Shown here: positions 4,471-37,089 of the stretch, one piece after another | Position numbering within the stretch: position 1 is the first letter of the stretch | How the letters are laid out: the number at the start of each line of letters is the position of its first letter | Virus record (IMG/VR): IMGVR_UViG_3300008113_000482 | Span: 1-37,089 of that record | DNA: 37,089 bases | Direction: 5' to 3' (one strand) | Origin: a virus | Made by a program: the position numbers and the translations under genes | The notes under the pieces: generated by a model | The model's database searches: none | Told to the model about the DNA's origin: nothing | What the model saw: the letters and a program-made list of their open reading frames with translations, nothing else

Positions 4471-4482
4471 AGGTAAAAATAT

Positions 4483-4962
4483 ATGGCAAAGTTAATGTAC
4501 AACAACTGTACAGTAACCATTAGACGTTCAGCAGGAATTCAGACAGGAGCAGCTCCTACATTTTCTGAAACTGCTATTACAGCAACTTGTTTTGCTAAAT
4601 CCATTAGTATTAATAAAACTATTGGTACAGTAGATGTTGCTGGTCTTTGTGATACTGTTCAGAAAATGCAAATAACCAGAAAATCTGGTACTCTTGATAT
4701 TGAACTTTATGTTGATCCAGCAACAGTTGTTTCTGGTGGTTTAGGTTCTTATATCTTTGAAGGTAAGTTAGGTTATTTTGTTGAAATCGCTTTTGACGCT
4801 GATGGTGCTGCTGCTGGCTTAACCGCAACCACTTACACAGGTGTTATTACAAATACATCTATTAATGTAGGTATGGATGATGCGATTACTGAAAGAGCAA
4901 CTATTACTCTTGGTGTCAATGGATTTGGTACATCAGGCTCTTCTGACACTTCTGTAACATAA
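4483..4962 (+). CDS. Major tail tube protein, copy 1
   Basis: A 159-residue beta-rich protein of the size and position of a siphovirus tail tube subunit. Recognisable parts are TCFAKSISINKTIGTVDVAG, RKSGTLDIELYV, FEGKLGYFVEIAF and the C-terminal strand pair around GVITNTSINVG. A clear GAGG site precedes the ATG. The next gene is a diverged paralogue, so tube formation may use two subunits, or one copy may serve at an end of the tube. Function is inferred from context. Confidence 0.7.
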   Translation: MAKLMYNNCTVTIRRSAGIQTGAAPTFSETAITATCFAKSISINKTIGTVDVAGLCDTVQKMQITRKSGTLDIELYVDPATVVSGGLGSYIFEGKLGYFVEIAFDADGAAAGLTATTYTGVITNTSINVGMDDAITERATITLGVNGFGTSGSSDTSVT

Positions 4963-17935: not shown

Positions 17936-18569
17936 TCAAAAACTCGCAAGCATCGTTTTTTCATAAGAGTTTTTGTTAGGTCATCTTTATTCCATTACTG
18001 CCAAGTAAACTTGTCATCCATTACATAAAGAAGACACTAAAAGTATTCTGAACTTTATTTCATATAAAAGATTTCTTTATAGAAGAAGCCAGATTTATTT
18101 CTTACCTAACCAGGATTTCTCTATATAAAAAAGTGTTTGAAAATAAAAAGACTACTCTGCTGGACTATACTACTTTTTCCGTTAAAAACCTCTGGTTTAG
18201 GAAAAATAGGATAGTACGGCAAAATAGTTTTTATTCGTTAAGCAAATCGCCAGATTTGTAGAATAAAAACTATTTATATATAACAATAATAATAAATAAA
18301 AAAATAACAATAAAGAATAGAGATGCGCTTTTATTTATAAAAGCATCAATTAGTTTCTTTTCTTTTGCTTCTTTTCTTTTCTTTGTAAGTGTTTCTATAT
18401 TAGTTATTTATAAAGAAACAGTCATTTGGAAACAGTTAATAAAAACAACAATAATCAGTAATATATGCGCTTTTATTTTAGTAAAAGCATCCTTACATTT
18501 TCTTTTATTTTTGCTTCTTTTTCTTTTCTTTTATGACTGTTTCTATATTAGTTATTTATAAAGAAACAC
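17936..18569. other. Non-coding AT-rich stretch with hairpins and repeats
   Basis: No supported gene is seen on either strand. The stretch holds a 54-nt nested hairpin (18222-18275), two tandem diverged units with internal hairpins (18323-18588), and pyrimidine-rich tracts on the plus strand. Together with 18750-19550 it is the best origin candidate. Confidence 0.5.
18222..18275. repeat. Large nested inverted repeat
   Basis: AAATAGTTTTTATTC (18222-18236) pairs perfectly over 15 bp with GAATAAAAACTATTT (18261-18275). Inside, CAAATC and GATTTG form a second 6-bp stem with a GCCA loop. No coding sequence is involved. It could be an origin hairpin, a protein-binding cruciform or a transcript end. 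Confidence 0.7.
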
Positions 18570-18588
18570 TTATTTGGAAACACTCATA
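18323..18588. repeat. Two tandem repeat units (A 18323-18441, B 18465-18588)
   Basis: Each unit begins ATGCGCTTTTATTT with a GCTTTTA/TAAAAGC hairpin, runs through a pyrimidine tract, contains TATATTAGTTATTTATAAAG, and ends with two GAAACA(G/C)T repeats 14 nt apart (18415 and 18429 in A; 18563 and 18577 in B). The arms flanking the central block are exchanged between units, so arm AAGTGTTTC of A matches GAAACACTT of B, and GACTGTTTC of B matches GAAACAGTC of A. Iteron-like. Confidence 0.7.
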
Positions 18589-18746
18589 TATCTATCTAAA
18601 AAACCACGCTTATTTGTTGTCTTATTAAAAAATCTCTTCTTGAAAAATCCATAGACTTTACAACAAACCATATAGATATAAAACAACACAAATGTAGCTA
18701 TAACACTATCCAAAAACACCAGTCTCATTTCATTAGTAAACATCAT
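18570..18746 (-). CDS. Small membrane protein (58 aa)
   Basis: A strong GGAGG site lies six bases before the ATG. The product begins MMFTNEMRLVF, has a membrane segment LDSVIATFVLFYIYMVCCKV, then a basic tail (FFKKRFFNKTTNKRG). The last codons lie inside repeat unit B, so the gene runs into the iteron region. No family is recognised. It would be an early leftward gene. The ribosome site is the strongest in the region, so it is probably expressed. Confidence 0.55.
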   Translation of the reverse strand: MMFTNEMRLVFLDSVIATFVLFYIYMVCCKVYGFFKKRFFNKTTNKRGFLDRYMSVSK

Positions 18747-18941: not shown

Positions 18942-19085
18942 TCCAAAAAAAAATTAAACCGGGTTTTGTAGTTGAGATTTTTCCTCCAAATATATAGTTA
19001 GTGTTTCTGACATTTTTATCAGGATATTTTTCCAGAGAAATAGTTAAGAAAAAAGAAATCCAAAAAAAAATTAAACCGGGTTTTG
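18942..19085. repeat. Pair of 27-bp direct repeats
   Basis: Identical 27-bp copies lie at 18942-18968 and 19059-19085, 117 bp apart. Each has TCC, nine A, then TTAAACCGGGTTTTG with the palindrome AAACC-G-GGTTT. They may be binding sites for an initiator or regulator. Confidence 0.75.
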
Positions 19086-19299: not shown

Positions 19300-19345
19300 A
19301 GGTGCTAAATATACACGCTAGCTACTACAATATAGTGTGTGTATG

Positions 19346-19392
19346 TATCCTTCTTATATAAGGATAAGCGCCAGCGGCAACGCCGCGGGCGC
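19346..19392 (+). promoter_or_regulatory. Tandem hairpins; the second is the first member (H1) of the intercistronic hairpin family
   Basis: TATCCTT/AAGGATA (19346-19366) is followed directly by a GC-rich hairpin (19368-19392): lower stem GCGCC/GGCGC, an A-G mismatch, upper stem GCGGC/GCCGC, loop AAC. This layout recurs between the genes downstream. Confidence 0.7.
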
Positions 19393-19419
19393 AACTGTAT
19401 CTAATGTGTAGCACCAATG

Positions 19420-19538
19420 GAAACGGTCAGTAGAAACAGTTAGAGGAGAATTCTTGAAGGTCCTTGCGCAAACCGTGTAGAATGTGTACAATGTCAGTAT
19501 TACCAAGCAGGAAACTGTCGGAAACAGTTAGAAACAAA
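19420..19538. repeat. GAAAC-type iterons
   Basis: GAAACGGTC (19420), GAAACAGTTAGA (19433), GAAACTGTC (19511), GAAACAGTTAG (19521) and GAAACAAA (19531) form two clusters. The same GAAACAGTTA occurs at 18429 in repeat unit A. A shared protein-binding site is likely; an origin role is inference. Confidence 0.55.
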
Positions 19539-19552
19539 TATTGAAGGTGGAC

Positions 19553-19581
19553 TTGACACCGACACAGAATGAAGGTAATAT
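19553..19581 (+). promoter_or_regulatory. Candidate sigma70-type promoter for the ATPase block
   Basis: TTGACA (19553-19558), a 17-nt spacer and TAATAT (19576-19581). Transcription would begin near 19588, about 40 nt before the first large gene. This looks like a host-type promoter, unlike the GATAAAATA late motif. Confidence 0.5.
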
Positions 19582-19630
19582 GGATACAGCAGCGTACCAA
19601 GCGTTGTTGTTAGAAGGAATGAAGAAATGA
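19580..19630 (+). CDS. Possible 16-aa leader peptide
   Basis: MDTAAYQALLLEGMKK is preceded by GAAGG, and its TGA overlaps the ATG of the next gene (ATGA), so it could couple translation. It would need a transcript starting upstream of the promoter proposed at 19553-19581, whose -10 box it overlaps. Both cannot be used on the same transcript. Confidence 0.25.
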   Translation: MDTAAYQALLLEGMKK

Positions 19631-20133
19631 ACGTAGTATTTGAAATCGCAGAGTTGGAGCACAAGGTCTCTAACCTGGTAGTGTCTATCGTGTACAGCGG
19701 TACAGAAGACACCATCGCAGTGAGTGGTCTCGGTGAAGCTATATTAGACGCAGCCAAAGCGCAAGGTCGTAAGGTAGTACCTATGATAGATAGTGTCCGC
19801 ATCAACAGCAGTATGATCATCAAGCCAGCAGCCGGTAAGGTCTACTGCTACGCAGGTCTCATCGTAGAAGGTGCGGAGATACCTGAACCTTGGCAGGTGG
19901 TCAACACGGTGCCTATCATCGTGGAGATAGACAAGGAAGCAGCCAAGCAACAGGACCTATTCAAAATGTTGAAGTTAGTAGAGACAGCGGAAGCACTGTG
20001 TAAATCTCATAATGAAGGTGATCCTTTTGAGACACACACTGTCCACCTGGTAGACAAGCTGCGTGTCAGCAGGTTTAGACAGGACCAATGGAACGTACTG
20101 CGCAACACCACAGCTTACCTAATCAAGCTGTAA
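19627..20133 (+). CDS. Hypothetical protein, first gene of the ATPase block (168 aa)
   Basis: AAGGAATGAAGAA precedes the ATG. The sequence has an N-terminal alpha/beta part (VVFEIAELEHKVSNLVVSIV, GLGEAILDAAKAQGRKVVPM), a strand region around KVYCYAGLIVEGAE and a helical C-terminus. No family is recognised. Codon use favours C-ending codons and AGC serine, unlike the late genes, and one 60-base line here is 32/60 G+C against 21/60 in the tape measure gene. It starts a rightward operon of hairpin-separated genes. Confidence 0.6.
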   Translation: MNVVFEIAELEHKVSNLVVSIVYSGTEDTIAVSGLGEAILDAAKAQGRKVVPMIDSVRINSSMIIKPAAGKVYCYAGLIVEGAEIPEPWQVVNTVPIIVEIDKEAAKQQDLFKMLKLVETAEALCKSHNEGDPFETHTVHLVDKLRVSRFRQDQWNVLRNTTAYLIKL

Positions 20134-20146
20134 TCTCAACAATGTC

Positions 20147-20169
20147 GGGTGCGGGCACAGCCCGCGCCC
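20147..20169 (+). promoter_or_regulatory. Intercistronic hairpin H2
   Basis: GGGT-GCGGGC, loop ACA, GCCCGC-GCCC; one T-G pair at the junction. It begins 13 nt after the preceding stop and ends 24 nt before the next ATG, which has the AAGGAAAAAATCAAATG leader. Confidence 0.8.
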
Positions 20170-20193
20170 GCTAATCAAGAAGGAAAAAATCAA

Positions 20194-20633
20194 ATGAAAG
20201 CAATCAAGATAGCATCGGAACTTACACAGTGGACCAATGAGGTACCAGTGTCATATTTATTTACCTACAAAGGCACCAAGCCTTACAATATCTTTGGTAT
20301 GTCTCCATATATTGTGTCTCTCGCAAGCCAGCAAGGACACAGCGTGGAGCACGGTCTTATCCTACCATCGACGTGGATACCAAGGACGGTGAGGTTGTTG
20401 TAATTCCAGTGGTTGTCAAGACCACAGCGGACCAACTGGATAGCATTAGCGCACTGTGCGATACCGCAGTGGCAGGTATCCAAGCTAACTGCCTACCACC
20501 TTCCACAACTTGGAAGCCACGCACCAAGATAACCAAGACCATTAGCACCAAAGATAGCTACCTCTTGGACCAGCGTATGTGTATCTATATCAATGGCAGC
20601 GGTAGACACTGTAATCTATCTACCAAAGCATAA
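20194..20633 (+). pseudogene. Hypothetical gene broken by a -1 frameshift
   Basis: The first frame starts at ATG 20194 behind the conserved AAGGAAAAAATCAAATG leader and stops at 20403 after 69 residues. From about 20361 the coding pattern moves to another frame (IDVDTKDGEVVVIPVVVKTT onward), which stays open to 20633 before the next hairpin. Restoring one base after CTACC (near 20366) would join them into one protein of ~146 residues with the sense LILP-IDVDTKDG. No slippery heptamer is seen, so a one-base deletion or a sequencing error is more likely than programmed shifting. Product unknown. Confidence 0.6.
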
Positions 20634-20645
20634 TCATCATCAAGC

Positions 20646-20671
20646 GGAAGCGGGGCGCAAGCCCCGCGACC
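20646..20671 (+). promoter_or_regulatory. Intercistronic hairpin H3
   Basis: Upper stem GCGGGGC/GCCCCGC with a GCAA loop (20650-20667), flanked by GG/CC around an AA/GA mismatch. It starts 12 nt after the preceding stop and lies 31 nt before the next ATG. Confidence 0.75.
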
Positions 20672-20702
20672 ACACTGTAATCAAACTATAAGGAATAGAA
20701 AA

Positions 20703-21464
20703 ATGAACGGAATGAAGACAAATGGTACCTTTGAGTACTTCAACAGCGCAGTAGCAGCAGCAAAGAACGTGCCAGGACAGAAGTGGTTGGCATATGACCA
20801 GAATGCTTTCAGCGGAGACGTGTGGACCATCCAAAGCGGGTTGACCTCTGAACCGCTGGCAATGGAGATACTTGGTTGTCTCTTGGATACCGGCACCTTT
20901 ACAATGACAGGCAGCGGAAACTTCAACAGTGTCGTGCTATACACAGGTGAGTACAGCAGCGAAGAATACCGTGAGACCATCAAGCAACTACAAGAAGCAC
21001 TGCCAGGAATGTTGGTAAATGACGCTAAATCTAATGGTAAAGGCGGTATTACATATGAACTTTGCTGGTCTGACCTTTATGTGTGGAATATGAGCACTTT
21101 CTCCTCCATTACTAATCTGGAAGGTTGTGATAAGTGCCAGCACGAACACCTTGGCAATATGAAAATGGAATACTGCGACAACTGCGCATCCACTTGGCAG
21201 GAGCACTTACACGGCACCTATATCAACTACCTTGAATTGGCAAAGGAACTTCTCGAAAGCATCGCAGAAAGCATCAACGAAGGACACGATAACCACATAT
21301 ATGAGTATGCGGAAGACCTTGAATACATCCTTGACCAATACCGCTGTGCTATGGCAAACGGTAATATTGACATCCTCGACTTCCTTGATAGCACGAGAGA
21401 ACAATATATCCTTATCAAAGCAAACCAACACCGCCTGGAAATGGCACACCTATACATCGACTAA
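20703..21464 (+). CDS. Hypothetical zinc-ribbon-like protein (253 aa)
   Basis: A central CxxC-x12-CxxC pattern (Cys142, 145, 158, 161; CDKC and CDNC) suggests a structural zinc site. The N-terminal ~110 residues are mixed alpha/beta with a YTGEYSSEEYRETIKQLQEA helix, and the C-terminal 80 are helical and acidic. It precedes the ATPase gene by one gene in the same operon. A DNA- or protein-binding role in replication is inference. AAGGAAT is the ribosome site. No family is recognised. Confidence 0.6.
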   Translation: MNGMKTNGTFEYFNSAVAAAKNVPGQKWLAYDQNAFSGDVWTIQSGLTSEPLAMEILGCLLDTGTFTMTGSGNFNSVVLYTGEYSSEEYRETIKQLQEALPGMLVNDAKSNGKGGITYELCWSDLYVWNMSTFSSITNLEGCDKCQHEHLGNMKMEYCDNCASTWQEHLHGTYINYLELAKELLESIAESINEGHDNHIYEYAEDLEYILDQYRCAMANGNIDILDFLDSTREQYILIKANQHRLEMAHLYID

Positions 21465-21473
21465 CAACTACAA

Positions 21474-21498
21474 GGGCAGCGGGCGCAAGCCCGCGCCC
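21474..21498 (+). promoter_or_regulatory. Intercistronic hairpin H4
   Basis: GGGC, bulged A, GCGGGC, GCAA loop, GCCCGC, GCCC. It begins nine nt after the preceding stop and ends 23 nt before the next ATG. A second pairing of AGCGGGCGC with GCGCCCGCT is also possible, so two folds compete. Confidence 0.8.
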
Positions 21499-21521
21499 GC
21501 TACTATGAAAGGAAAAATCAA

Positions 21522-21815
21522 ATGAAAAACATCAGCATCGGACACGAACCTGTCTACATCAACACACCATATGGCACTATCTATATTGAGTGCGCAGAAT
21601 GGTCAGAAGCAAAGCCAGAACTTATCGTAGGTATTTTTGACCTGTCAGATAGCGCTAACTTGTGCCTATCAGTGTCAGATCAACAGGAAGAATACACTAT
21701 TGATACCAGCACTACCAAAGCACCTAACGCTGTAATGCCACCTATCAAGGACATCGACACCAGCAAGCTAAAAACACCTAAACCTATCATCGACAAGGCA
21801 GGAAACTTACTATAA
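21522..21815 (+). CDS. Hypothetical protein (97 aa)
   Basis: Follows the leader TATGAAAGGAAAAATCAA. The N-terminal half is strand-rich (VYINTPYGTIYIECAEW, LIVGIFDLSD) and the C-terminal half is Pro/Thr/Lys-rich and probably extended. No family is recognised. Its first 17 coding bases plus three before are identical to those of the small holin-like gene at 32861, an odd match between blocks of different composition. Confidence 0.55.
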   Translation: MKNISIGHEPVYINTPYGTIYIECAEWSEAKPELIVGIFDLSDSANLCLSVSDQQEEYTIDTSTTKAPNAVMPPIKDIDTSKLKTPKPIIDKAGNLL

Positions 21816-21827
21816 ATACAACAGCAA

Positions 21828-21853
21828 GGGCAGCGGTACGCAGTACCGCGCCC
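21828..21853 (+). promoter_or_regulatory. Intercistronic hairpin H5
   Basis: GGGC, bulged A, GCGGTAC, loop GCA, GTACCGC, GCCC. It shares the layout of H4 but has a different stem sequence with both sides changed. It starts 12 nt after the stop and ends 25 nt before the ATPase ATG. Confidence 0.8.
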
Positions 21854-21878
21854 ACTACTACCAAAGGATATAAATGAA

Positions 21879-22829
21879 ATGAAACTTGAAAAAATCGCAG
21901 ACCAAATCAAGGTGTGGAGCAAACTACCAGCACCGGAATACCTCGTAGATAAACTATTCATCGAAGGTAGCATCAATATCATCGCAGCACCATCGAATGC
22001 TGGCAAAACACTTATCGCAACAGAGCTATTCCTTACTATTGGAACTGGCGGAACCTTCTTTGGCAGAACGGTGAAGAAATCTACCGTGATGTACTTTGAC
22101 CTTGAACTACAACACTCCTTGTACTTCCTACGCTTACGCAAACAACACAGCGGAGAGCTACCAGACAATATGTACTATGAAGAAGAGCGCATCGACGTAC
22201 TTGACGATAGCGTAATCAACAAATGTGCGGAAGAGATGTTGGCAGCAGGTGTAAAGGTCATCATCGTGGACAGTTATAGCCAGTGGTGTAGCGGGTTGGA
22301 AGAGAATTCTAATAGCCAACACGCTATCGTGCTGACACAACTCATCAAGATGCAAAACAAAGGTCTAACACTCATATTCTTGGCACACACACGCAAAGGA
22401 GCCACAAGCGCTAATCCTATTGAGATGATCCGTGGCGGTAGTGTGATAGGCAGCGGAGCATCAACTATCCTATACTTGGAGAAGCAGGTTGACACATACA
22501 GACTGCGACAAATCAAGGATAGACTGATACCAACGGAAGAATGGTTGGATGTGTACTTCCGCTTCAAAACCAATGAGCACGGAGAACTAAAACCTATGCT
22601 AATGGAAGACGCTAACATTAACAATACACTGTCAGCACAAATCATCAGCCACCTCGAAAGCGCACCATATTCAAGCGGAAATGATGTAGCAAAGGCAGTA
22701 AGCGCACAAAGAGCCACAGTGTCAGCAGAACTCAAAAAACTGGTGGAAATCGGTGCTATACAACAGGAACCGAAAGAACCACGCAAAGGTCAACGTGTCA
22801 AATATTACCTGCCAGAAGACCAAGGATAA
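21879..22829 (+). CDS. RecA-like P-loop ATPase (RepA/DnaB-type helicase family)
   Basis: A 316-residue protein. The Walker A motif is IAAPSNAGKT (35-44), Walker B is KVIIVDSYSQW (Asp131), and FLAHTRKG (167-174) is the usual sensor segment, followed by IRGGSVIGSGAS. This order is typical of AAA_25/RepA-type hexameric ATPases of phages and plasmids. The last ~65 residues look like a winged helix (NDVAKAVSAQRATVSAELKK). It probably loads on or unwinds DNA in phage replication. The ATG at 21879 follows a two-codon ATGAAATGA and an AAAGGA site. It is the only recognised replication-type gene here. Confidence 0.85.
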   Translation: MKLEKIADQIKVWSKLPAPEYLVDKLFIEGSINIIAAPSNAGKTLIATELFLTIGTGGTFFGRTVKKSTVMYFDLELQHSLYFLRLRKQHSGELPDNMYYEEERIDVLDDSVINKCAEEMLAAGVKVIIVDSYSQWCSGLEENSNSQHAIVLTQLIKMQNKGLTLIFLAHTRKGATSANPIEMIRGGSVIGSGASTILYLEKQVDTYRLRQIKDRLIPTEEWLDVYFRFKTNEHGELKPMLMEDANINNTLSAQIISHLESAPYSSGNDVAKAVSAQRATVSAELKKLVEIGAIQQEPKEPRKGQRVKYYLPEDQG

Positions 22830-22838
22830 CAACAACAA

Positions 22839-22869
22839 GCTGTGTGCGGTACGCAGTACCGCGCACAGC
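22839..22869 (+). promoter_or_regulatory. Intercistronic hairpin H6
   Basis: GCTGTGT-GCGGTAC, loop GCA, GTACCGC-GCACAGC: 14 pairs including one T-G. It begins nine nt after the ATPase stop and ends 20 nt before the next ATG. Confidence 0.85.
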
Positions 22870-22889
22870 GCTATGAAAGGAAAAATCAA

Positions 22890-23219
22890 ATGGAAATCAA
22901 GAACACAAAGCACATCAAAGCAAACAAAGAAGGATATGTACTGCGCCACCAAAGCAAAGGTATTACACGCAGCTACCTTGACCACCTATATATTTGGGCA
23001 GTGAAGAATGACCTTTATCTCTATATCCTTGTGAAACCTAATGAAACAAGAATGGCACCTGGATATGAAGATAGGTGGATAATGGAATGGAGAAAATACT
23101 GTCCTGCTGTCCAAGACCAAATAGGAGAGAATGACCAATGTCGTGGAATGTATTACTGTACCTTTGGATATATGCCTGACCAAGAATTAATGGAACAGGA
23201 TCCACGATATAAAGGATAG
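22890..23219 (+). CDS. Hypothetical protein (109 aa)
   Basis: The start chosen is the ATG behind the conserved GAAAGGAAAAATCAAATG leader; an upstream start would place the N-terminus in the hairpin. The protein is rich in aromatic residues and basic at the N-terminus (HIKANKEGYVLRHQSKG), with WAVKNDLYLYILVKP as a likely strand. No family is recognised. Codon use drifts back toward the AT-rich style in the second half. It is the last gene before a strong terminator. Confidence 0.6.
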   Translation: MEIKNTKHIKANKEGYVLRHQSKGITRSYLDHLYIWAVKNDLYLYILVKPNETRMAPGYEDRWIMEWRKYCPAVQDQIGENDQCRGMYYCTFGYMPDQELMEQDPRYKG

Positions 23220-23239
23220 CAACACACCGGCACCACTAC

Positions 23240-23278
23240 AAAGACCAAGCAGCACGAACACTGCCTGGTCTTTTTTTT
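23240..23278 (+). terminator. Rho-independent terminator of the ATPase block
   Basis: AAAGACCA-A-GCAG pairs with CTGC-C-TGGTCTTT around CACGAACA and is followed by a T-run to 23278. It starts 20 nt after the last gene. Confidence 0.85.
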
Positions 23279-23280
23279 GT

Positions 23281-23380
23281 CTATATGTTGTGTATATGTG
23301 GCAAATATCTACTAACTAATACTATATGTTGTGTCTACTAATGGAGCGACACGCAGTGTCGCGACCAATACCTTGGTCGC
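23281..23380. repeat. Orphan hairpin leader H7 with direct repeats
   Basis: CTATATGTTGTGT occurs at 23281-23293 and 23322-23334. Then GCGACAC-GCA-GTGTCGC (23346-23362, flanked by TGG/CCA) has the family layout, followed at once by GCGACCAA-TACC-TTGGTCGC (23361-23380). After it comes AAAATGAAGGAAATG but no gene, only an 11-codon frame. It may be the leader of a lost gene. The rest of 23381-23487 shows nothing. Confidence 0.6.
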
Positions 23381-23487
23381 TAAAATGAAGGAAATGATAT
23401 ACCTTTTTGCTGTTATATAGATGTACCAGCACAAATCATATACCTAACAATATCCACCTATTTTTGACCATATTTTAGGCACAAAAA

Positions 23488-23521
23488 AGGCGGTATCAGG
23501 AAGTAGAACCTAATACCGCCT
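23488..23521 (-). terminator. Leftward terminator of the 24199 gene
   Basis: AGGCGGTAT (23488-23496) pairs with ATACCGCCT (23513-23521), with AGG/CCT continuing inside. Read leftward, a T-run follows. It lies 18 nt beyond the gene's stop. Confidence 0.8.
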
Positions 23522-23539: not shown

Positions 23540-24199
23540 TTACAAAATATTACCTGCCTGTTCCTTCCAAGCGTTCCATAAGGTTGTGTGCGCCAGATAT
23601 ATCTCTTCCGGCATCAAGGTTCTCAAATGTGCGCAAGCTTCTTTGATATTGTTATTGACCTTGTTGTAGTAGTTGATATTCTTCTTGACCGCAGCAAAAC
23701 CATCCATCATATTCCAATGTTGTTCCGCTTTACCAGGAGAAAAATATTTATATGAAGTTGGCTCGTGCTTGATATCGTTTAGCTCTATTGATGGCGCACA
23801 CGGAGACACGCTTGAAAATAGCACCTGGAATTCTCTCTCGGTCATAATGCGTGTCTCTCTTGTCTTACTCCACACAACAGCAGCATAGTTAGCAGGTATT
23901 ACACGGTAGCTATAATCTTGGCAATAGTAGCAAATGAAGGCTGGCTGTACTGAATAGAATAATGCCACCTGTTGACCTAATGACACTACTGGCGCTACTA
24001 ACGTGCTGCCTTGATATTGACACGCTTTTAGTTCAAATATAAGGCTGAAATATCCACGATTTGACACTTTATATTGTGTCTCGCTGTCTATTGCGCTATC
24101 TTCATCAAACACACTCATATTGGCGCCATATTCTTTAATTCTGGTGCTGATTTGATAGAGAGAATGGTCTTCCGCTCTATTTTGCTTTACTTGGTTCAT
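23540..24199 (-). CDS. Hypothetical protein, possible nuclease fold (219 aa)
   Basis: This leftward gene is convergent with the ATPase block but shares its GC-richer codon use. The segment GYFSLIFELKACQ (Glu56-x-Lys58) after an acidic stretch (VFDEDSAIDSE) recalls the E-x-K of PD-(D/E)xK nucleases, but the match is weak. The C-terminal third is helical. The AGGT site is modest and is preceded by a perfect 10-bp hairpin 16 nt upstream, repeating the hairpin-leader plan of the block on the other strand. Function unknown. Confidence 0.55.
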   Translation of the reverse strand: MNQVKQNRAEDHSLYQISTRIKEYGANMSVFDEDSAIDSETQYKVSNRGYFSLIFELKACQYQGSTLVAPVVSLGQQVALFYSVQPAFICYYCQDYSYRVIPANYAAVVWSKTRETRIMTEREFQVLFSSVSPCAPSIELNDIKHEPTSYKYFSPGKAEQHWNMMDGFAAVKKNINYYNKVNNNIKEACAHLRTLMPEEIYLAHTTLWNAWKEQAGNIL

Positions 24200-24763: not shown

Positions 24764-25141
24764 ATGGAAGATAGAGATAAGAAACAGTTAACATTTGCGC
24801 CAGTAGAAGAGAAGCAGCAGTTTAGAGTTCATTTAGATTTGAATGTTGCTATATTACAGAAAGGTTATACTCAAAGTCAACTTGCTGATTTATTAGGTAC
24901 CAAGCAAAGTCATATTTCAGATTGGTTGAGAGGTAAGAAAGGTATTAGCGAGGAATATTTATTTGGTCTTGCTAAAATACTTGATATGGATCCTTATGAT
25001 TTGTCTCGTATTTTAAAAGGTAGGAGAGATGCTTACAGTAGAGTTATGAAGATAAGAGATAAGAATAAGAGGATACAGGATGAATTGGAAGATTTACAAA
25101 AGGAAAAGGACAGGCAGAGAGTTAGTTTCTTTAAGCGTTGA
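24764..25141 (+). CDS. XRE-family helix-turn-helix regulator with coiled-coil tail
   Basis: The start is the ATG at 24764 with GGAG upstream; an in-frame TTG at 24752 overlaps that site and is less likely. Residues ~27-80 are an HTH_3/XRE domain (GYTQSQLADLLGTKQSHISD, then WLRGKKGISEEYLFGLAKIL). Residues ~95-120 form a charged coiled coil. The protein probably binds the repeats in its upstream region. Its gene overlaps the sigma factor gene by 62 bases, so the two are co-expressed. It may act as a switch regulator of the sigma-terminase operon. Confidence 0.8.
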   Translation: MEDRDKKQLTFAPVEEKQQFRVHLDLNVAILQKGYTQSQLADLLGTKQSHISDWLRGKKGISEEYLFGLAKILDMDPYDLSRILKGRRDAYSRVMKIRDKNKRIQDELEDLQKEKDRQRVSFFKR

Positions 25142-25877
25142 AGAGGAGCGATTTTTATTTAGTGTTATAGATGATGATGAGTTATTAGTATTAGAAGAGT
25201 TATTAAAGTGTAATGTTGGTTTGATACATAAGATTTGTCATAATCATAGTAAGCAAGGTGTAGAGTATTCTGATTTATTTTCTTCTGGAATGATTGGTTT
25301 AGTAGTTGCTGCTAAAAAGTTTGATGTTAGTAAAGGTAATCGTTTTTCCACTTATTGTTATTATTGGATTTCTCAAAAGATAAAGAGAAATATAGAGAAT
25401 AATGCTACTATTATTAGGTTGCCAGTTCATATAAAGGAAACTATTAGGCAGTTAAATAATATCCAGGATTTATCAGTATTGGAGATTGCTACACTTACTG
25501 GAAAAAGTTTAAATAGTGTAATAAATGCGATAAATGCTGCGGAGATTAATGTTTTTAGTTTAGATTATAGTGGCGAGGAAAATGAGTATAGTTTTTATGA
25601 TGTAAAGTCAGATGATAGTGCTGATCCTTTATATGATGGTTTAGTTGAGCAGGAAGGTATTAAGTTGATATACGATAGTTTAGAACAGTTAAATGAAATG
25701 GAAAAGAAGATTGTGCTTTACACTTATGGTTTAGGTGTGGATCGTATTAGTATGGTTGAGTTTTGTAAGAAGTTTCAGATAAATGGTAATCAGTATCAGG
25801 ATTATTTATCTTCTGCTATGGAGAAACTAAAAACTAATGCTGCTTTGAAGGAGTGGTTTAAAGATGGATTACAATGA
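25080..25877 (+). CDS. Phage-encoded sigma70-family factor
   Basis: Region 1.2/2.1 is seen as LSVEEERFLF; region 2.2-2.4 as DLFSSGMIGLVVAAKKFD, NRFSTYCYYWISQKIKRNI and IIRLPVHIKE (residues 65-120). This is close to the primary sigma pattern, including the aromatic -10 recognition segment. Region 3 is short and region 4 (~200-255, LEQLNEMEKKIVLYTYGLGV) is degenerate, so -35 recognition may be weak or absent. GAGG precedes the ATG at 25080, inside the XRE gene. It probably directs host RNA polymerase to late promoters (inference). Position just before the terminase fits. Confidence 0.9.
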   Translation: MNWKIYKRKRTGRELVSLSVEEERFLFSVIDDDELLVLEELLKCNVGLIHKICHNHSKQGVEYSDLFSSGMIGLVVAAKKFDVSKGNRFSTYCYYWISQKIKRNIENNATIIRLPVHIKETIRQLNNIQDLSVLEIATLTGKSLNSVINAINAAEINVFSLDYSGEENEYSFYDVKSDDSADPLYDGLVEQEGIKLIYDSLEQLNEMEKKIVLYTYGLGVDRISMVEFCKKFQINGNQYQDYLSSAMEKLKTNAALKEWFKDGLQ

Positions 25878-26235
25878 GTTGATTAAGCATCCTGAAATAT
25901 ATGCGGAGGTTCAGAATGCTTTGATGATTGGAATGACAGAGAGTAAGATTGCTAAAACTTATGATTTGCCAGTTTCTACTATTCAAACTATTCAAGAGCG
26001 TATGCAGCAGAGTATTAAGGTTGCGGATGATTGGTCAGAGAATAAAAGATTAGATGATTTACTTGCTGATTTGATTACAGAGAATACGAGAGCTTTGAGG
26101 CAGATTAGTAAACAAGCATTAGATCCTGGTTACACTTTAAATCAAAAAGCAGGAGATTTAGGAAACTTATATGAGAAGATTGGACAGTTTACAATTCGAC
26201 TTCTTGAAGCCGCAGCAGAAGCAAAAAACAAATAA
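25864..26235 (+). CDS. Terminase small subunit
   Basis: A 123-residue helical protein with an N-terminal helix-turn-helix (MTESKIAKTYDLPVSTIQTI) and a helical oligomerisation region, the usual plan of small terminases that bind the packaging start site. It overlaps the sigma gene by 14 bases, with AAGGAG before the ATG, and it overlaps the large subunit gene by 65 bases. Length is in the usual range. The family is inferred mainly from fold pattern and position. Confidence 0.75.
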   Translation: MDYNELIKHPEIYAEVQNALMIGMTESKIAKTYDLPVSTIQTIQERMQQSIKVADDWSENKRLDDLLADLITENTRALRQISKQALDPGYTLNQKAGDLGNLYEKIGQFTIRLLEAAAEAKNK

Positions 26236-27574
26236 GGATCGTATTTTATTACCTCCTGACAACTATTTACAGTATATGATTGATACATTGCCACAAGGTT
26301 GGAGTGTAGATGCAAAACATATAAAGTTGATTTGTAAGCATTTAGATATGGTTGAGCGTGGAGAGATAAAGAGGTTAATGATAAATATGCCTCCTCGCCA
26401 CGGTAAAACTGAAACTATTACTGTGCGATTTGGTGCTTATTTTTTAGAGAGAAATCCTACTGATAATGTTCTTGTAACTGGTTATAATGAGCGTATTGCG
26501 AGGCGTTTTAGTAGAAAAAGTAGGCAGATTGTTAAAGAGAGAAGACCACTTTCAGATGATAGTACAGCGCAGGATGAGTGGACTTTACCAGAAGGTGGAA
26601 CATTTTTAGCAAGAGGTGTTGGTTCTCCTCCTACTGGTGTTGGTTTCAAGCTTATTCTTATTGATGATCCTATTAAAAGTAGAGAAGATGCTGAAAGTAT
26701 GATTATGAGAGATAAAGCGTGGGACTGGTATAGCGATGATTTATTTACACGTTTAGAGCCTGGTGGTGCTATTATTATGGTTTGTACGAGATGGCACGAG
26801 GATGATGTTGCTGCTCGTGCTTTGGCTTCTGAACCTGATGGATGGACAGTGTTAAGTCTTCCTGCTATTTGCGAGGATGAGGATGATGCTATTGGTAGAA
26901 AGATAGGAGAGCCACTTTGGAAGGAGCGCTATAATAAAGTAGATTTGAATAAAATTAAAAAAGTTATGATTGCGCAAAGTGGAGATTATGGTTGGAATGC
27001 TCTTTATCAGCAAAATCCTATTCCTCGTACTGGTGCTTATTTCTCTCCTGAAAAGATAAAAATAGAGCCATTTAAGCCAAAGATTATAAGGCAAATAAGA
27101 GCGTGGGACTTGGCTTCCACTGCTAATGCTGGCGACTTTACTGTTGGTATTCTTTTAGGTAAGGATATTGATAATAAGATTTGGATTTTGGATATGGTTA
27201 GAGGTCAATATGATGCTGGAACAAGAGATAGGATTATTAGACAAACAGCAGAACTTGATGGAGTTGATACAAGAATAAGAATGCCACAAGATCCAGGACA
27301 AGCAGGTAAGAGCCAAAAGTTACATATGGCGCAGTTATTACAAGGTTTTCCAGTAGTATTTCTTCCTGTAAGTGGTAGTAAACAGTTAAGAGCAGATCCA
27401 GTAGGTAGTCAAATAGCAGCAGAGAATGTTTTTATGTTGAAAGCAGATTGGAATAGATATTTATTAGATGAATTAAGAAGTTTTCCGCTTGGTAAGAATG
27501 ATGATATTGTTGATGCTTTGGCTGATGCTTATTCAGAAGTAAGTAGAAGTAGAAGTGGTTGGACAGCAGCATAA
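26171..27574 (+). CDS. Terminase large subunit
   Basis: ATPase and nuclease for DNA packaging. Walker A is MPPRHGKTE (73-81) and Walker B is LILIDDP (161-167), with the coupling segment MVCTRWHEDD (203-212). The RNase H-like nuclease follows: IRAWDLASTANAGDFTVG (Asp313, Asp322) and NDDIVDALADAY (443-454). At 467 residues it is a normal length. The ATG at 26171 has AGGAAA upstream and lies inside the small subunit gene. Packaging mode cannot be decided from the protein, though the circular layout suggests headful or cos circularisation. Confidence 0.95.
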   Translation: MRRLDSLQFDFLKPQQKQKTNKDRILLPPDNYLQYMIDTLPQGWSVDAKHIKLICKHLDMVERGEIKRLMINMPPRHGKTETITVRFGAYFLERNPTDNVLVTGYNERIARRFSRKSRQIVKERRPLSDDSTAQDEWTLPEGGTFLARGVGSPPTGVGFKLILIDDPIKSREDAESMIMRDKAWDWYSDDLFTRLEPGGAIIMVCTRWHEDDVAARALASEPDGWTVLSLPAICEDEDDAIGRKIGEPLWKERYNKVDLNKIKKVMIAQSGDYGWNALYQQNPIPRTGAYFSPEKIKIEPFKPKIIRQIRAWDLASTANAGDFTVGILLGKDIDNKIWILDMVRGQYDAGTRDRIIRQTAELDGVDTRIRMPQDPGQAGKSQKLHMAQLLQGFPVVFLPVSGSKQLRADPVGSQIAAENVFMLKADWNRYLLDELRSFPLGKNDDIVDALADAYSEVSRSRSGWTAA

Positions 27575-27617: not shown

Positions 27618-29318
27618 ATGGCATTATTTGATATTTTTAAGAGTAAGAAGGCTAATACATTGCCATCATCAGCACAAGCTCCTTTTCCGCTATCTCAAAG
27701 TGGATTTAATAGGCTCAATGCTTATGGAAATGGTAGTTTAGTAAGTTTATTAACAAGACAACTACCTGGAAGTCATAGAGATTGGAGTACAGAAGCAGGA
27801 GATTTAGGTCTTAATAGTATTGTTGCTATTTCAATAGACTGGTATAATCGCAACTTCTCGCAAGCTGTACCAAAGGTTTATCGTCCTTCTTCTACTCAAC
27901 AAGATGATAGTGTTGAGCATCCTATTATAAATCTCATTAAAAATCCTTCAAATCTTTATGTTTCTTCTATATTTTGGTCTTTTGTTATTCAGGATTACAA
28001 GTTATTAGGTAATGCTTATGTAAGAAAGATTAGAGTTGGTGGAAAAGTAGTAAGTTTACAATATTTACCAGCAGATATGGTTCAGCCAGTTGGAAATACT
28101 ATAACACCTATTGAATATTGGACATATACAGTTGATGGTGTAAGTTATAAGATTGAAAACAAGGATATTATTCATTTCCGTTATGGTAGAGATCCAAAAG
28201 ATTTACGTTTAGGTAGAAGTCCAGTAGCAAGTGTATTAAGAGAGATTGCCACTGATAACTATGCTTCTTCTACTGCTTTTGGTTTGATGAGAAATGGTCC
28301 TATTCCTGCGATGATTTTAGGTCCAGATGCTAATGATTTGGCTGTGGATATTTCTCCTGATGATGCTAAAACTGTAAAGCGCAAGTTACAAGAAGATTTT
28401 ACTGCTGATAATGCTGGTAATGTAGCAGTTATGACAGGTCCTTATAAAATGGATCGTGTTTCTTGGTCTCCGGAAGAGTTAACACTTGATACTATTAGAA
28501 GATTGCCGGAAGAGCGTATTACTGCTGCTCTTGGTATAAATGCGATGGTTTTAGGTTTAGGTGCTGGTTTAGAGCGTAGTACTTATCAAAACTATGAGAG
28601 AAGTCAACAACAAGCGTGGGAAGATGGAATGATACCTCTACTCAAACAGTTGGCAGAAGTTATTACTTTTACTCTTATGTATGAATATCCTGAAACACAA
28701 GATGGCGAGTATTTTGAGTTTGATGTTAGTAATGTAAGAGCGTTAGCAGATGATTTAGATAGTGCTGCTAAAAGAGCGGAGATACTTTACACTGCTGGTA
28801 TTGCTACTTTGGAAGAGGCAAAACTTATTGCTGGTCTTACAAATACAAGTACTCCAACTGTTTCTGATGAAAATACAGTAAGGACGCAGCAATCGGAAAC
28901 ACTCTCTAAAAGTTTTGCGAGAGAAGTAGCACAAGAAATATTAAATACACCAATAGTAGAACCATCTTTTTATTCTTATTTTGAAGAAACAAAAGCCACT
29001 CCAACACAAGGTATGAAAGATGCTGCAAGAAGAGCATTAAAGTGGAAAGAAGAAGGTTTTGATGGTGGTACAAGAGTTGGTTTAGCAAGAGCAAATCAGA
29101 TTGTCAATGGAGAAAACTTATCTGATGACACTATTTTAAGAATGTATAGTTTCTTCTCTCGCCACGAAGTTGATAAAAAAGCATCTGGTTTCTATGAAGG
29201 ACAAGAAGGTTATCCAAGTAATGGTAGAGTTGCGTGGGATTTGTGGGGCGGAGATCCAGGTTTTTCTTGGTCTAAAAAAAATAGAGATAGAATAATAAAA
29301 GAAGAAGACGATAAATAA
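27618..29318 (+). CDS. Portal protein (HK97 type) with C-terminal extra domain
   Basis: Residues ~1-410 are a HK97-like portal (ISIDWYNRNFSQAVPKVY, LLGNAYVRK, QYLPADMVQP, IIHFRYGRDP and the GLGAGLERSTYQNYERSQQQ segment). Residues ~460-555 form a second unit (MKDAARRALKWKEEGFDGGT, RMYSFFSRHEVDKK, GYPSNGRVAWDLWGGDPG) that I recall from other phage head-module proteins. Its function is not known. The portal ring is the packaging channel. GAGGT precedes the ATG. Confidence 0.9.
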   Translation: MALFDIFKSKKANTLPSSAQAPFPLSQSGFNRLNAYGNGSLVSLLTRQLPGSHRDWSTEAGDLGLNSIVAISIDWYNRNFSQAVPKVYRPSSTQQDDSVEHPIINLIKNPSNLYVSSIFWSFVIQDYKLLGNAYVRKIRVGGKVVSLQYLPADMVQPVGNTITPIEYWTYTVDGVSYKIENKDIIHFRYGRDPKDLRLGRSPVASVLREIATDNYASSTAFGLMRNGPIPAMILGPDANDLAVDISPDDAKTVKRKLQEDFTADNAGNVAVMTGPYKMDRVSWSPEELTLDTIRRLPEERITAALGINAMVLGLGAGLERSTYQNYERSQQQAWEDGMIPLLKQLAEVITFTLMYEYPETQDGEYFEFDVSNVRALADDLDSAAKRAEILYTAGIATLEEAKLIAGLTNTSTPTVSDENTVRTQQSETLSKSFAREVAQEILNTPIVEPSFYSYFEETKATPTQGMKDAARRALKWKEEGFDGGTRVGLARANQIVNGENLSDDTILRMYSFFSRHEVDKKASGFYEGQEGYPSNGRVAWDLWGGDPGFSWSKKNRDRIIKEEDDK

Positions 29319-34283: not shown

Positions 34284-35365
34284 TGCCATATGTAACTTCT
34301 AATACATTTAAAGGTTTTTTACATCCAGATGGTCCATCAGGTACATCTGCTAATGCTTTTACTACATTTACGCTAAACAATGATAATATGGGCATCGCTT
34401 ACACAGTAACGATGCCAGAGGCTGCTACTATTACAAGAGTTTTGCTTTATTGTACTGCTGCTTCTGGTTTGACGGATCCAGCAACAGTAAGACTTGAAGG
34501 CATTGACCTAACTAATGGACAACCTAATAATACATCTCTTTCTGGTGCTGCTGTAAACATTCCAAACACTGCTGGATTTCTTGAAATACCTCTTACTACT
34601 CCTTATTCAGCAGCAGCAGGAGAAGATTTTTATATTGTTATTAGATTAGCAAACCAAAACTCTGGCTCTCAAATCTTTGGTCTAACAAGAAGATATTCTT
34701 TTCAGCAAGCAACTCCTATTGTACTTACAAGAGCAACAGGAGCAGGTACATTTACAAAAAATGCTAATAATGGTTTTCCACAAGCAATAGTTGGAAGTGC
34801 TACAAAATGGTATGGTTATGCTATTCCAGTACAACCACACGCTTCAGGAGCAGTTCAGGCTAATCCTACTTATGTTGGATTTTATTTTCAAACACCAGCA
34901 TCATCTCCAGAGTTTCTTTTAAAATCAGTTTTTTGTGGTGTTCAGATGACTGCTAATCAACTTACTGATTTTGTTATTTTTGATGCTGCTGGAACAACAC
35001 TTTATAGTAGTGTATATGATAATGACCAGTTTGTAGATAGTTCTGCTGGTCTTATGAATGAGTTTATTGTTGCTAATGGACTTTGGATACAACCAAACAC
35101 AAGATATTATGTAATGTTTAGGTCTACTACTGCTGCTGCTAATAAAAATATTTTTAGACTTCTAATTCCTTCAGCAACAATGTTAACAGATTTTACTGGT
35201 GGTATTCAGTGGGGCGTATCAAGATACGCCTCTGGAACATTTATTGATGATGCTACTGCTATACCTTCAGCATCATTAGAGATTTGTGGTATTAGATATT
35301 TTCAAACAGCAGGTGGAGCAACTACTTATTCTTTACCTGCTGGATTTAATCATTTTAGTGGCTGA
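34283..35365 (+). CDS. Fibre-like surface protein X1 (360 aa)
   Basis: A complete relative of X0 and the intact counterpart of the X2 fragment at window start. Domain 1 spans ~1-165, the joint VGSATKWYGYAIP follows, and domain 2 includes the conserved YDNDQFVDSSAGLMNEFIV to the end. It begins by TAATG overlap with X0 and is followed by a GATAAAATA motif and the Y1 gene. The C-terminal third differs from X2 at only about nine of 103 positions. Role inferred as for X0. Confidence 0.65.
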   Translation: MPYVTSNTFKGFLHPDGPSGTSANAFTTFTLNNDNMGIAYTVTMPEAATITRVLLYCTAASGLTDPATVRLEGIDLTNGQPNNTSLSGAAVNIPNTAGFLEIPLTTPYSAAAGEDFYIVIRLANQNSGSQIFGLTRRYSFQQATPIVLTRATGAGTFTKNANNGFPQAIVGSATKWYGYAIPVQPHASGAVQANPTYVGFYFQTPASSPEFLLKSVFCGVQMTANQLTDFVIFDAAGTTLYSSVYDNDQFVDSSAGLMNEFIVANGLWIQPNTRYYVMFRSTTAAANKNIFRLLIPSATMLTDFTGGIQWGVSRYASGTFIDDATAIPSASLEICGIRYFQTAGGATTYSLPAGFNHFSG

Positions 35366-35372
35366 TAAAATA
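35364..35372 (+). promoter_or_regulatory. GATAAAATA motif before Y1
   Basis: Overlaps the X1 stop codon by two bases and ends 25 nt before the Y1 ATG. Counterpart of the motif at 355. Confidence 0.45.
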
Positions 35373-35397
35373 ATAGAGCACTCAAGAGGACCAAAAT

Positions 35398-37089
35398 ATG
35401 TTTCAAATAAAACAATCAGAAGCCACAGCAGCAAGACGTAGAATACCAGTATTATTAGTTGATATTACTGATGGATTTACTCCAGAAACTGGTGTAGTAA
35501 CTCCTACTATCAATGTATCTAAAAATGGTGCTACTGTTGCTACTGGTGCTGGTACTTGGACAGAAATAGGTAATGGTCAGTATTATTACGAGTTTACTGC
35601 TGGCGAAGTTGACACTTTAGGATGGATAGCAGTAAATGTTGAAAAAGCAACTGTATCAAGAGATTATAATGCAGTTATTCAAGTTATGGCATACGATTAT
35701 GCTGTCGCTACAAATCTTGGTTTATCAGCCTTACCTGCTGTTGCTTCTGGTAGTGCTGGTGCTATTCCAACTACAGGTACTGGTGCAAACCAAATACAGG
35801 TCAATGGTAGTGGAGCAATCAGCACAGTTGTATCAGTATCAGGCTCGGTAGGTAGTGTAACAGGAAACGTAGGTGGTTCTGTTGCTTCTGTTGTTGGTGC
35901 TGTTGGTTCAGTTACTGGAAATGTTGGTGGAAACGTAGTAGGTAGTGTAGGAAATCTTGCTGTTGCTGCTGTTGATGCTATTTGGAATGAACCTACATCT
36001 TCTCTTACAGTTGTTGGTAGTGTTGGAAAACTTATTGTAGATAATGTAAATGCTACTATTTCTTCAAGAGCAACAGATGCTGGTGTATGGGCAGTTGGAA
36101 CAAGAACTTTAACTGCTGGTACTAACATTGTTCTTGCTAAAGGTACAGGTATTACAGGTTTTAATGACATTAGTGCCACTGATGTTTGGGCAGCAACAAC
36201 CAGAACATTATCTTCAGGAGCAAATATAGTACTTGCCAAAGGCACTGGTATTACAGGATTTAATGACATTGCTGCTATTGATCCTTGGAATGTTCTTGCT
36301 GCTAACGTAACTACAGCATCAAGTATTGGACTTCAGTTAAAAACTAACATTGACACTACTATTTCAAGTAGAATGGTAACATTTACTTTACCAGTAAGAT
36401 TTAGTTCTCTTGCTATTGATACTAATGGATTTGTAACTTATAACAATGTCGTATCTATACCAACTTCTGGAAGTATTGCTACTGCTGTATGGTCAGAACC
36501 TATTCCTGGATCATATGCTGCTGGTACTGCTGGTGCTAAACTCAATGCCGCTTCTTCTGCTGGTGATCCTTGGGCTACAGCACTTCCTGGTAGTTATGCT
36601 GCTGGAACTGCTGGAAATATTTTAGGAAATAGATTAGATGCTGCTATTACTACAAGATTAGCATCAGCATCTTACACAACTCCTCCTACTACTGCTGCCA
36701 TTGCTACACAAGTATGGTCAGAAACTTTACCAGGTTCTTACACAGCAACACAAGCAGGCTTCAAGTTAAATGCTGCTGGTAGTGCTGCTGATCCTTGGAG
36801 CACAAACTTACCTGGATTGTATCCAGTAGGTACAGCTGGAAATATAATTGGAAATAGACTTGATACCAATGTTGGTTCAAGAATGGCTACATTTACATTG
36901 CCTTCTAACTTCTCATCTCTTGCTATATCAGGAGTAGGAGCAGTTACAGCAGGTACTGTATCTGATAAAACTGGATATTCATTATCTGGTTCTCAAACAT
37001 TCAGCACAACTGGAAGTGTTGGAAGCGTATCTGGCAGTGTTGCCTCCGTATCTGGAAATATAGGAGGTAATGTCGTTGGAAGTGTTAAT
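35398..37089 (+). CDS. Repetitive tail-fibre-like protein Y1, N-terminal 564 residues (cut by window end)
   Basis: The frame is open from ATG 35398 to the last base, so the glycine linker and C-terminal sandwich lie outside the window. It parallels Y2 (389-2857): the same N-terminal domain (MFQIKQSEATAARRRIPVLL), GSV-type repeats with about two more units than Y2, and the TGITGFNDI repeats. After that the blocks are in a different order: the FSSLAIDTNGFVTYNNVVSI block comes before the IATQVWSETLPG block, while Y2 has them reversed. A ribosome site GAGG is present. Confidence 0.75.
   Translation, partial: MFQIKQSEATAARRRIPVLLVDITDGFTPETGVVTPTINVSKNGATVATGAGTWTEIGNGQYYYEFTAGEVDTLGWIAVNVEKATVSRDYNAVIQVMAYDYAVATNLGLSALPAVASGSAGAIPTTGTGANQIQVNGSGAISTVVSVSGSVGSVTGNVGGSVASVVGAVGSVTGNVGGNVVGSVGNLAVAAVDAIWNEPTSSLTVVGSVGKLIVDNVNATISSRATDAGVWAVGTRTLTAGTNIVLAKGTGITGFNDISATDVWAATTRTLSSGANIVLAKGTGITGFNDIAAIDPWNVLAANVTTASSIGLQLKTNIDTTISSRMVTFTLPVRFSSLAIDTNGFVTYNNVVSIPTSGSIATAVWSEPIPGSYAAGTAGAKLNAASSAGDPWATALPGSYAAGTAGNILGNRLDAAITTRLASASYTTPPTTAAIATQVWSETLPGSYTATQAGFKLNAAGSAADPWSTNLPGLYPVGTAGNIIGNRLDTNVGSRMATFTLPSNFSSLAISGVGAVTAGTVSDKTGYSLSGSQTFSTTGSVGSVSGSVASVSGNIGGNVVGSVN

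Follow-up and report, generated by a model that had tools for sequence, protein, structure and literature searches.

A family of intergenic GC hairpins that may punctuate the mRNA of a six-gene phage block

Why should the genes of one short phage block be separated by hairpins that share a shape but differ in sequence? The window analyzed here is the whole 37,089-nt viral record, and in it the family motif [A/T]-GCG(n)C-loop(3-4)-G(n)CGC-G matches seven times on the plus strand and never on the minus strand. All seven copies (H1 to H7, Table 1) are noncoding, in a record of which ~12% is noncoding. In 300 dinucleotide shuffles of positions 19300-23450 the motif occurred 0.0067 times on average and at most once, and the hairpin folds have z-scores of -2.5 to -5.5. 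Against the possibility, raised with the original prediction, that such hairpins are equally frequent within coding sequence, none of the six block genes (0/6) contains a comparable one. A rough survey of the co-directional gaps in ~140 other viral loci, a GC-rich set selected by pattern, found a GC hairpin without a T run in 18% of the gaps and in no case three such gaps in succession, as are present here even if the split gene was miscalled. The hairpin family is real and far beyond chance, and only one genome is known to carry it.

Table 1 Hairpins, genes and transcription signals of the block (positions in the window)
Feature	Position	Strand	Structure, match or remark
H1	19368..19392	+	GCGCC-A-GCGGC-AAC-GCCGC-G-GGCGC; block's upstream edge
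Candidate block promoter	19553..19581	+	TTGACA-17-TAATAT; scan as a whole at chance level
Gene 1	19627..20133	+	168 aa; no family match
H2	20146..20170	+	CGGG-T-GCGGGC-ACA-GCCCGC-G-CCCG
Gene 2	20194..20633	+	split over two frames (20194-20403 and 20373-20633)
H3	20646..20671	+	GG-AA-GCGGGGC-GCAA-GCCCCGC-GA-CC
Gene 3	20703..21464	+	253 aa; without relatives in phage or plasmid records
H4	21474..21498	+	GGGC-A-GCGGGC-GCAA-GCCCGC-GCCC
Gene 4	21522..21815	+	97 aa; no family match
H5	21828..21853	+	GGGC-A-GCGGTAC-GCA-GTACCGC-GCCC
Gene 5	21879..22829	+	RepA/DnaB-like AAA ATPase (AAA_25, PF13481); 39% identical to L004 4946-5908
H6	22839..22869	+	GCTGTG-T-GCGGTAC-GCA-GTACCGC-G-CACAGC
Gene 6	22890..23219	+	109 aa; 58% identical to L004 4150-4491
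Intrinsic terminator after gene 6	23244..23279	+	imperfect stem AAGACCAAGCAG/CTGCCTGGTCTT, then T run
H7	23343..23366	+	GG-A-GCGACAC-GCA-GTGTCGC-GA-CC; between two convergent terminators
Terminator of convergent gene 23540-24199	23488..23521	-	

Pairing was tabulated by script over the seven copies, and the anatomy agrees with the original prediction: the upper stem varies (GCGGC, GCGGGC, GCGGGGC, GCGGTAC, GCGACAC) with a matching partner strand in each case, the loops are AAC, ACA, GCAA (twice) and GCA (three times), and the stem junction is an A.G mismatch, an A bulge, A.A/A.G or a T.G pair. Stem totals range from 9 to 13 bp, and both stem and loop lengths vary among the copies. Every one of the 72 pairs in the stems is Watson-Crick, G.T being confined to two junctions, and the hairpins' own arms pair at 100% of positions as against 74% for swapped arms. 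In this genome taken alone, there is support for a structural element that is conserved through compensating changes in its stems. H5 consists of the lower stem of H4 and the upper hairpin of H6, and a palindrome at 23361-23380 overlaps H7 and competes with its weak lower stem (GG/CC). The exclusively Watson-Crick stems suit a DNA palindrome no less than an RNA. Perfect pairing and the sharing of whole helices between copies would also be the outcome of template switching, and a GC-rich hairpin duplicated with its spacer might keep its pairing by such mutation and not by selection; the single known genome agrees with this neutral origin, but the presence of a copy in every gap, with constant placement and fixed orientation, makes it very improbable.

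The five hairpins that the original prediction placed between block genes were all confirmed. H2-H6 fill all five gaps of the six-gene block, one copy each and in the orientation of the genes, starting 9-12 nt past the stop codon and ending 20-31 nt before the next start; the wording that a hairpin stands between every gene holds if the split second gene is one frameshifted gene, and not otherwise. Each gap is a module of ~60 nt composed of a stop codon, an A/C-rich unpaired linker, a GC hairpin of 9-13 pairs, an A-rich linker with AAGGA and a start codon. The leader predicted to be shared by three copies was also found, with AAGGAAAAA(A)TCAAATG following H2, H4 and H6 (the leader sequence here is AAGGAAAAATCAAATG). 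The gaps are of uniform length (57-69 nt), whereas most neighbors in the phage's other operons overlap or lie <50 nt apart. In the predicted folds of H2 and H4-H6, the AAGGA ribosome site stays free of pairing. On the plus strand none of the copies is followed by a T run (0/7), which rules out intrinsic terminators.

As the best of the readings compared, we suggest, tentatively and with a probability of about 0.4, that H2-H6 are punctuation stem-loops on a polycistronic phage mRNA. The one copy per gap, the near-fixed distances to stop and start, the orientation, the uniform gaps and the free ribosome sites all count for this reading, as do the missing T run, the matched changes in the two arms and the lack of hairpins inside the six genes. 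The strand bias counts in the same direction: the plus-strand RNA folds better than the minus strand in five of the seven copies, and both junction T.G pairs work on the plus strand only. For such punctuation we infer effects on cleavage, protection and expression: mRNA cleavage would take place within the unpaired, A-rich leader that follows the hairpin, the upstream gene's message would then end in the hairpin, as a cap that protects its new 3' end from 3'-5' exonucleases, and the hairpin may keep the translation of neighboring genes from interfering while the next ribosome site stays free. Weighing against mRNA punctuation, the stems contain no internal G.U pair, which is unusual for a selected RNA.

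The nearby ribosome site would also suit a protein-binding RNA operator, in which each hairpin, in the manner of coat-protein or boxB hairpins, is bound by a phage protein coordinating the block's translation or antitermination. The C-G closing pair and the A or T at the 5' junction stay constant across variable stems, and the loops are mostly GCA or GCAA, but some loops are AAC or ACA and the junction may be an A bulge, a mismatch or T.G. Moreover, the ribosome site is not occluded, there is no candidate RNA-binding protein, and H1 and H7 would be left unexplained, making an operator improbable.

The two outermost copies were predicted to have the same layout as the others, and here the prediction failed. 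H1 does not come after a gene, and 234 nt separate it from the first block gene; H7 lies beyond the terminator, 123 nt past the last stop, and the plus strand has no gene start for ~1.4 kb after it. Because the likely promoter lies downstream of H1, and H7 stands between convergent terminators, both probably fall outside the block transcript. The candidate promoter has a counterpart, TTGACA-16-TAGAAT, at the same place in the sister phage L004 (about 2607), and a consensus promoter scan of the region found 29 matches against 29.0 expected, singling out none beside H2-H6. Of the predicted selected RNA element with conserved structure, the compensating stem changes stand, in one genome, and an RNA is plausible for H2-H6, while the mRNA role leaves H1 and H7 (2/7 copies) unexplained, which counts against punctuation. 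A hairpin might itself be a promoter, as in phage N4, where the virion RNA polymerase recognizes DNA hairpins of the form C(GNA)G. Three copies have a C-GCA-G triloop on a 7-bp stem, in agreement with the loop rule of N4 (PMC4496689), but the N4 loop lies on the template strand and the present one on the coding strand, two of the loops read AAC or ACA, and the largest ORF encodes 974 aa as against a virion polymerase of ~3,500 residues (PMC12633501), leaving this explanation barely conceivable.

The probable position of H1 and H7 outside the transcript and the stems that are all Watson-Crick would suit a mobile DNA hairpin like a REP, in which a single-strand (Y1/HUH) transposase of the host or donor spreads a short imperfect palindrome that is tolerated only between genes. 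Alphaproteobacterial genomes likewise have the core AGCGnnnC-GCA-GnnnCGCG in repeated extragenic palindromes, the genome of L259 contains nine pattern matches of which eight have the same palindrome GGAGCGATGCGCAGCATCGCG, and a Pseudomonas contig has repeats of a similar element, GTAGGAGCG..CGCGAT; however, the search pattern for these bacterial matches was derived from the motif itself, which in part selects for the likeness. E. coli REPs likewise have a mid-stem mismatch region (PMC8266576). No Y1 transposase is present in the record (PF01797 absent in six frames; control genomes positive), which counts against the GTAG type only, because CGTC REPs have no dedicated transposase (PMC3733652). 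A conserved GTAG or CGTC tag is lacking as well: CTAC (GTAG on the minus strand) follows H4 and H5 only, H2 is followed by CTAA and H6 by CTAT, and H1, H3 and H7 by neither. Random insertion would not yield exactly one copy per gap in one orientation at fixed distances, and we consider a REP-like origin unlikely.

By composition the block looks foreign, with a GC content of 46% and a third-position GC of 0.38-0.54 as against at most 0.28 elsewhere in the phage. Genes 1, 3 and 6 gave no matches in phage records, gene 3 and the ATPase gave none in plasmids, and no tRNA was found. L004, whose terminase is 94% identical and which is the only sister found that covers the site, has different genes at that place, tightly spaced and without hairpins; its equivalent block differs in gene content and order, and its homologue of gene 6 (4150-4491) has no hairpin in front. 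Searches of IMG/VR with the ATPase, gene 6 and the terminase returned relatives only without hairpins. Searches with four hairpin patterns in IMG/VR and with a single one in GTDB genomes gave, among the matches listed, scattered and mostly high-GC hits plus bacterial REP-like repeats, and no hairpin-carrying relative appeared among those listed from either database with the patterns tried. The hairpin-free block of L004 and the single carrier genome count against mRNA punctuation. If punctuation is correct, the block may have been acquired by exchange from a GC-richer donor, and H1 and H7 would be copies left behind at its edges.

The same foreign composition and the difference from L004 in gene content and order also suit a cassette joint, in which the intergenic module, with its hairpin as ssDNA or cruciform, is a site of gene swapping. 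H1 and H7 bracket the block, and the modules share pieces, H5 with H4 and H6 and the leader among H2, H4 and H6. However, the shared stretches are short, the same cassettes were not found in any other order, and the record has no tyrosine recombinase (PF00589 absent); reading the flanks, we saw no integron attC core box GTTRRRY. A cassette joint alone is quite unlikely, and taken jointly with the REP-like element it forms a possible but doubtful reading. The ideas could be combined in a phage cassette array, where a DNA hairpin of constant shape and variable sequence would delimit each gene of the foreign block and bound it at both edges, genes would be gained, lost or reordered without a dedicated integrase, and the hairpins would double as mRNA punctuation; we regard this as rather improbable.

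The hairpins are not a member of any family tested. Rfam covariance models gave no match above the gathering score in the window, the best sub-threshold hit being an irrelevant snoRNA (19.4 bits versus 42). In the early promoter hairpins of N4, too, a short stem carries a C(GNA)G triloop (PMC4496689), but here the loop is variable and on the other strand and a virion RNA polymerase is missing. REPs (GTAG- or CGTC-tagged; BIMEs) are likewise GC-rich imperfect extragenic palindromes of 20-40 bp, often between co-directional genes (PMC3733652), whereas the present hairpins are phage-borne, one per gap and in a single orientation, with neither tag nor Y1 transposase. In Cluster K mycobacteriophages, a conserved ribosome-site leader (SAS) likewise precedes non-structural genes with an inverted repeat (ESAS) just upstream (PMC3203893). 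The 17-bp ESAS repeats stand beside a 13-bp start-associated sequence, GGGATAGGAGCCC, not encountered here, and lose base pairing when they vary, for which their authors favor DNA-binding sites; here the stems are shorter, the loops are 3-4 nt and both arms covary. The PeSLs (promoter early stem-loops) of T4-type phages are likewise repeated intergenic stem-loops in a variable non-structural region with proposed gene shuffling (PMC4503421), and archaeal virus HGTV-1 has a motif similar to them (PMC3950731). The predicted likeness to these T4-type cassettes is an analogy only, as a PeSL combines a promoter with a terminator stem-loop and the hairpins here have neither a T run nor a standout consensus promoter. 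Repeated phage intergenic stem-loops have been described already in PeSLs and ESAS, with a role inferred in each case, and a hairpin in every gap, with both arms matched and beside a hairpin-free sister phage, offers a clean natural comparison.

Both strands of the window were scanned by script for the motif [A/T]GCG(n)C followed by a 3-4 nt loop, the exactly complementary arm and a closing G. All seven matches lay on the + strand, the - strand giving no match, and these are H1 to H7, the GC-rich hairpins described in the original prediction. When 19300-23450 was shuffled 300 times with dinucleotides preserved, the motif occurred 0.0067 times on average (maximum 1), far below the number recovered, and a broader hairpin definition gave 8 observed versus 0.12 in shuffles. 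None of the six genes of the ATPase block holds a comparable hairpin, so the concern that such hairpins might be equally frequent inside coding sequence can be set aside. RNA fold z-scores range from -2.5 (H7) to -5.5 (H6). In each hairpin 2-6 pairs form the lower stem and 5-7 pairs the upper one, which starts with GCG and ends in a C-G pair closing a GCA, GCAA, ACA or AAC loop; the junction between the two stems is a T.G pair, an A bulge, A.A/A.G or an A facing G. H5 combines the lower stem of H4 with the upper hairpin of H6, and therefore the helices are shared as units. All 72 stem pairs (72/72) are Watson-Crick, and own arms pair at 100% and swapped arms at 74%, among seven copies in one genome that may not be independent; template-switch mutation can also produce matched arms without selection.

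Positions of features in the window
Feature	Position	Remark
H1	19368-19392	block edge
H2	20146-20170	block gap
H3	20646-20671	block gap
H4	21474-21498	block gap
H5	21828-21853	block gap
H6	22839-22869	block gap
H7	23343-23366	block edge
Gene 2, two overlapping frames	20194-20403, 20373-20633	together 20194-20633
Candidate promoter TTGACA-17-TAATAT	19553-19581	between H1 and first block start; conserved counterpart in L004
Terminator with T run	about 23244-23279	upstream of H7
Terminator of convergent gene	23521-23488	beyond H7
AT-rich noncoding stretch	18282-18600	
TTAAACCGGGTTT	18954-18966, 19071-19083	leader upstream of block
Diverged duplication	19418-19460 / 19510-19548	leader 3' of H1
Sigma factor	25080-25877	Sigma70_r2; PHROG 351
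Terminase	26171-27574	
Portal	27618-29318	
Similar record ends	1-2400, 35014-37089	tail-fibre-like

Much as predicted, H2-H6 start 9-12 nt past a stop codon and end 20-31 nt ahead of the next start. The block gaps measure 60, 69, 57, 63 and 60 nt; in other operons of the window, most neighbouring genes overlap or sit <50 nt apart. Each gap runs from the stop through an A/C-rich linker (e.g. CAACAACAAG), the hairpin, a second linker (often beginning with CTA) and AAGGA to the start, and predicted folding leaves the ribosome site free in H2 and H4-H6. H2-H6 thus occupy the block gaps, and their placement between every gene holds only if gene 2, split between two frames, is a single gene. Gene 2 looks like one protein frameshifted near 20350-20375; a real, a programmed and an erroneously assembled frameshift are alike possible.

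The same layout had been proposed for H1 and H7 and does not apply: no gene precedes H1, the first start lies 234 nt downstream, and H7 sits between two terminators, with a weak lower stem that competes with an overlapping palindrome. The promoter candidate leans on its counterpart at the same place (TTGACA-16-TAGAAT) in L004, a sister phage contig, because promoter matches overall are at chance level. Since this candidate follows H1 and terminators flank H7, both copies are probably outside the main transcripts. The leader 3' of H1 also carries the diverged duplication (77% over 43 nt, GGAAAC.GTC..AAACAGTTAGA...TTGAAGGT). The palindrome-containing TTAAACCGGGTTT, possibly an operator or origin element, likewise occurs twice in the L004 leader (about 2098 and 2290; one variant is CCGGGGTT), the pairs being kept despite diverged surroundings. 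The AT-rich stretch holds two diverged copies of a ~155-nt repeat, both matching one L004 stretch (about 1580-1745).

We tentatively favor, at a probability of about 0.42, that H2-H6 punctuate the mRNA. Each hairpin would cap the 3' end of the upstream message against exonucleases and separate neighbouring cistrons, leaving the next ribosome site exposed, and the mRNA may be cut in the A-rich leader, judging from how bacterial mRNAs generally decay. However, H1 and H7 are probably untranscribed and the stems lack G.U pairs. A DNA-level palindrome, whether REP-like or a cassette joint, would account for both points, and we regard the two DNA readings together as possible, though somewhat less likely; a protein-binding operator appears improbable.

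The window, an entire IMG/VR virus record (37,089 bases) without end repeats, is a tailed phage, encoding terminase, portal and prohead protease. Its two ends resemble each other (94% down to about 78% identity, with many Gly/Ser/Val repeats), as either paralogous genes or an assembly overlap between two strains. The closest terminase relatives (93-100% amino-acid identity) are mostly on short contigs; L004 (34 kb) is one close relative spanning the hairpin region, with 83-96% amino-acid identity across most packaging and head genes. The phage-encoded RNA polymerase sigma factor is 83% identical in L004. The block has 46% GC, with third-position GC of 0.38-0.54 in its genes versus 0.10-0.28 for the other genes listed. 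Within the block, L004 has counterparts of just the ATPase (39% amino-acid identity) and gene 6 (58%), in reversed order, and at that site most L004 genes are tightly packed, with no hairpins of this kind between them. By its composition the block looks foreign, apparently acquired from a GC-richer source, and since the L004 site is free of hairpins, these would have arrived with the block or arisen in it.

Homology searches (ATPase, gene 6, terminase) found no other IMG/VR virus with such a series, nor did four hairpin patterns among the matches listed. A search of 50,697 phage records gave no relatives of genes 1, 3 or 6, and plasmid records gave none of gene 3 or the ATPase. GTDB pattern matches were mostly chance ones in GC-rich genomes; repeated same-core palindromes occurred in alphaproteobacterial genomes (e.g. 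GGAGCGATGCGCAGCATCGCG, at 8 sites in the genome carrying locus L259), and a Pseudomonas contig showed the REP-like GTAGGAGCG..CGCGAT. This resemblance is partly selected because the pattern was built from our motif, and we treat it as a lead, claiming no relation to the phage hairpins. In an alphaproteobacterial MAG (L259, L270, L273, L276-L281), CTCATCYTGAGGAGCGATGCGCAGCATCGCGTCGCGAAGGATG is present in at least 8 copies, probably a CGTC-type REP family.

REPs bear a tag, and GTAG types accompany a Y1 transposase (PMC8266576, PMC3733652); neither a tag on the hairpins nor this transposase in the record was found, and no Rfam family matched in the window. N4 promoter hairpins (PMC4496689) share the C(GNA)G loop, but their polymerase is absent here and the loop is on the wrong strand. 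PeSLs combine promoter and terminator (PMC4503421, PMC3950731), whereas our hairpins lack a T run and promoter matches are at chance level. Where Cluster K ESAS repeats vary in sequence, their pairing is lost (PMC3203893); H1-H7, in contrast, keep pairing while varying. We class the series, known here from one genome, with the repeated intergenic phage stem-loops.
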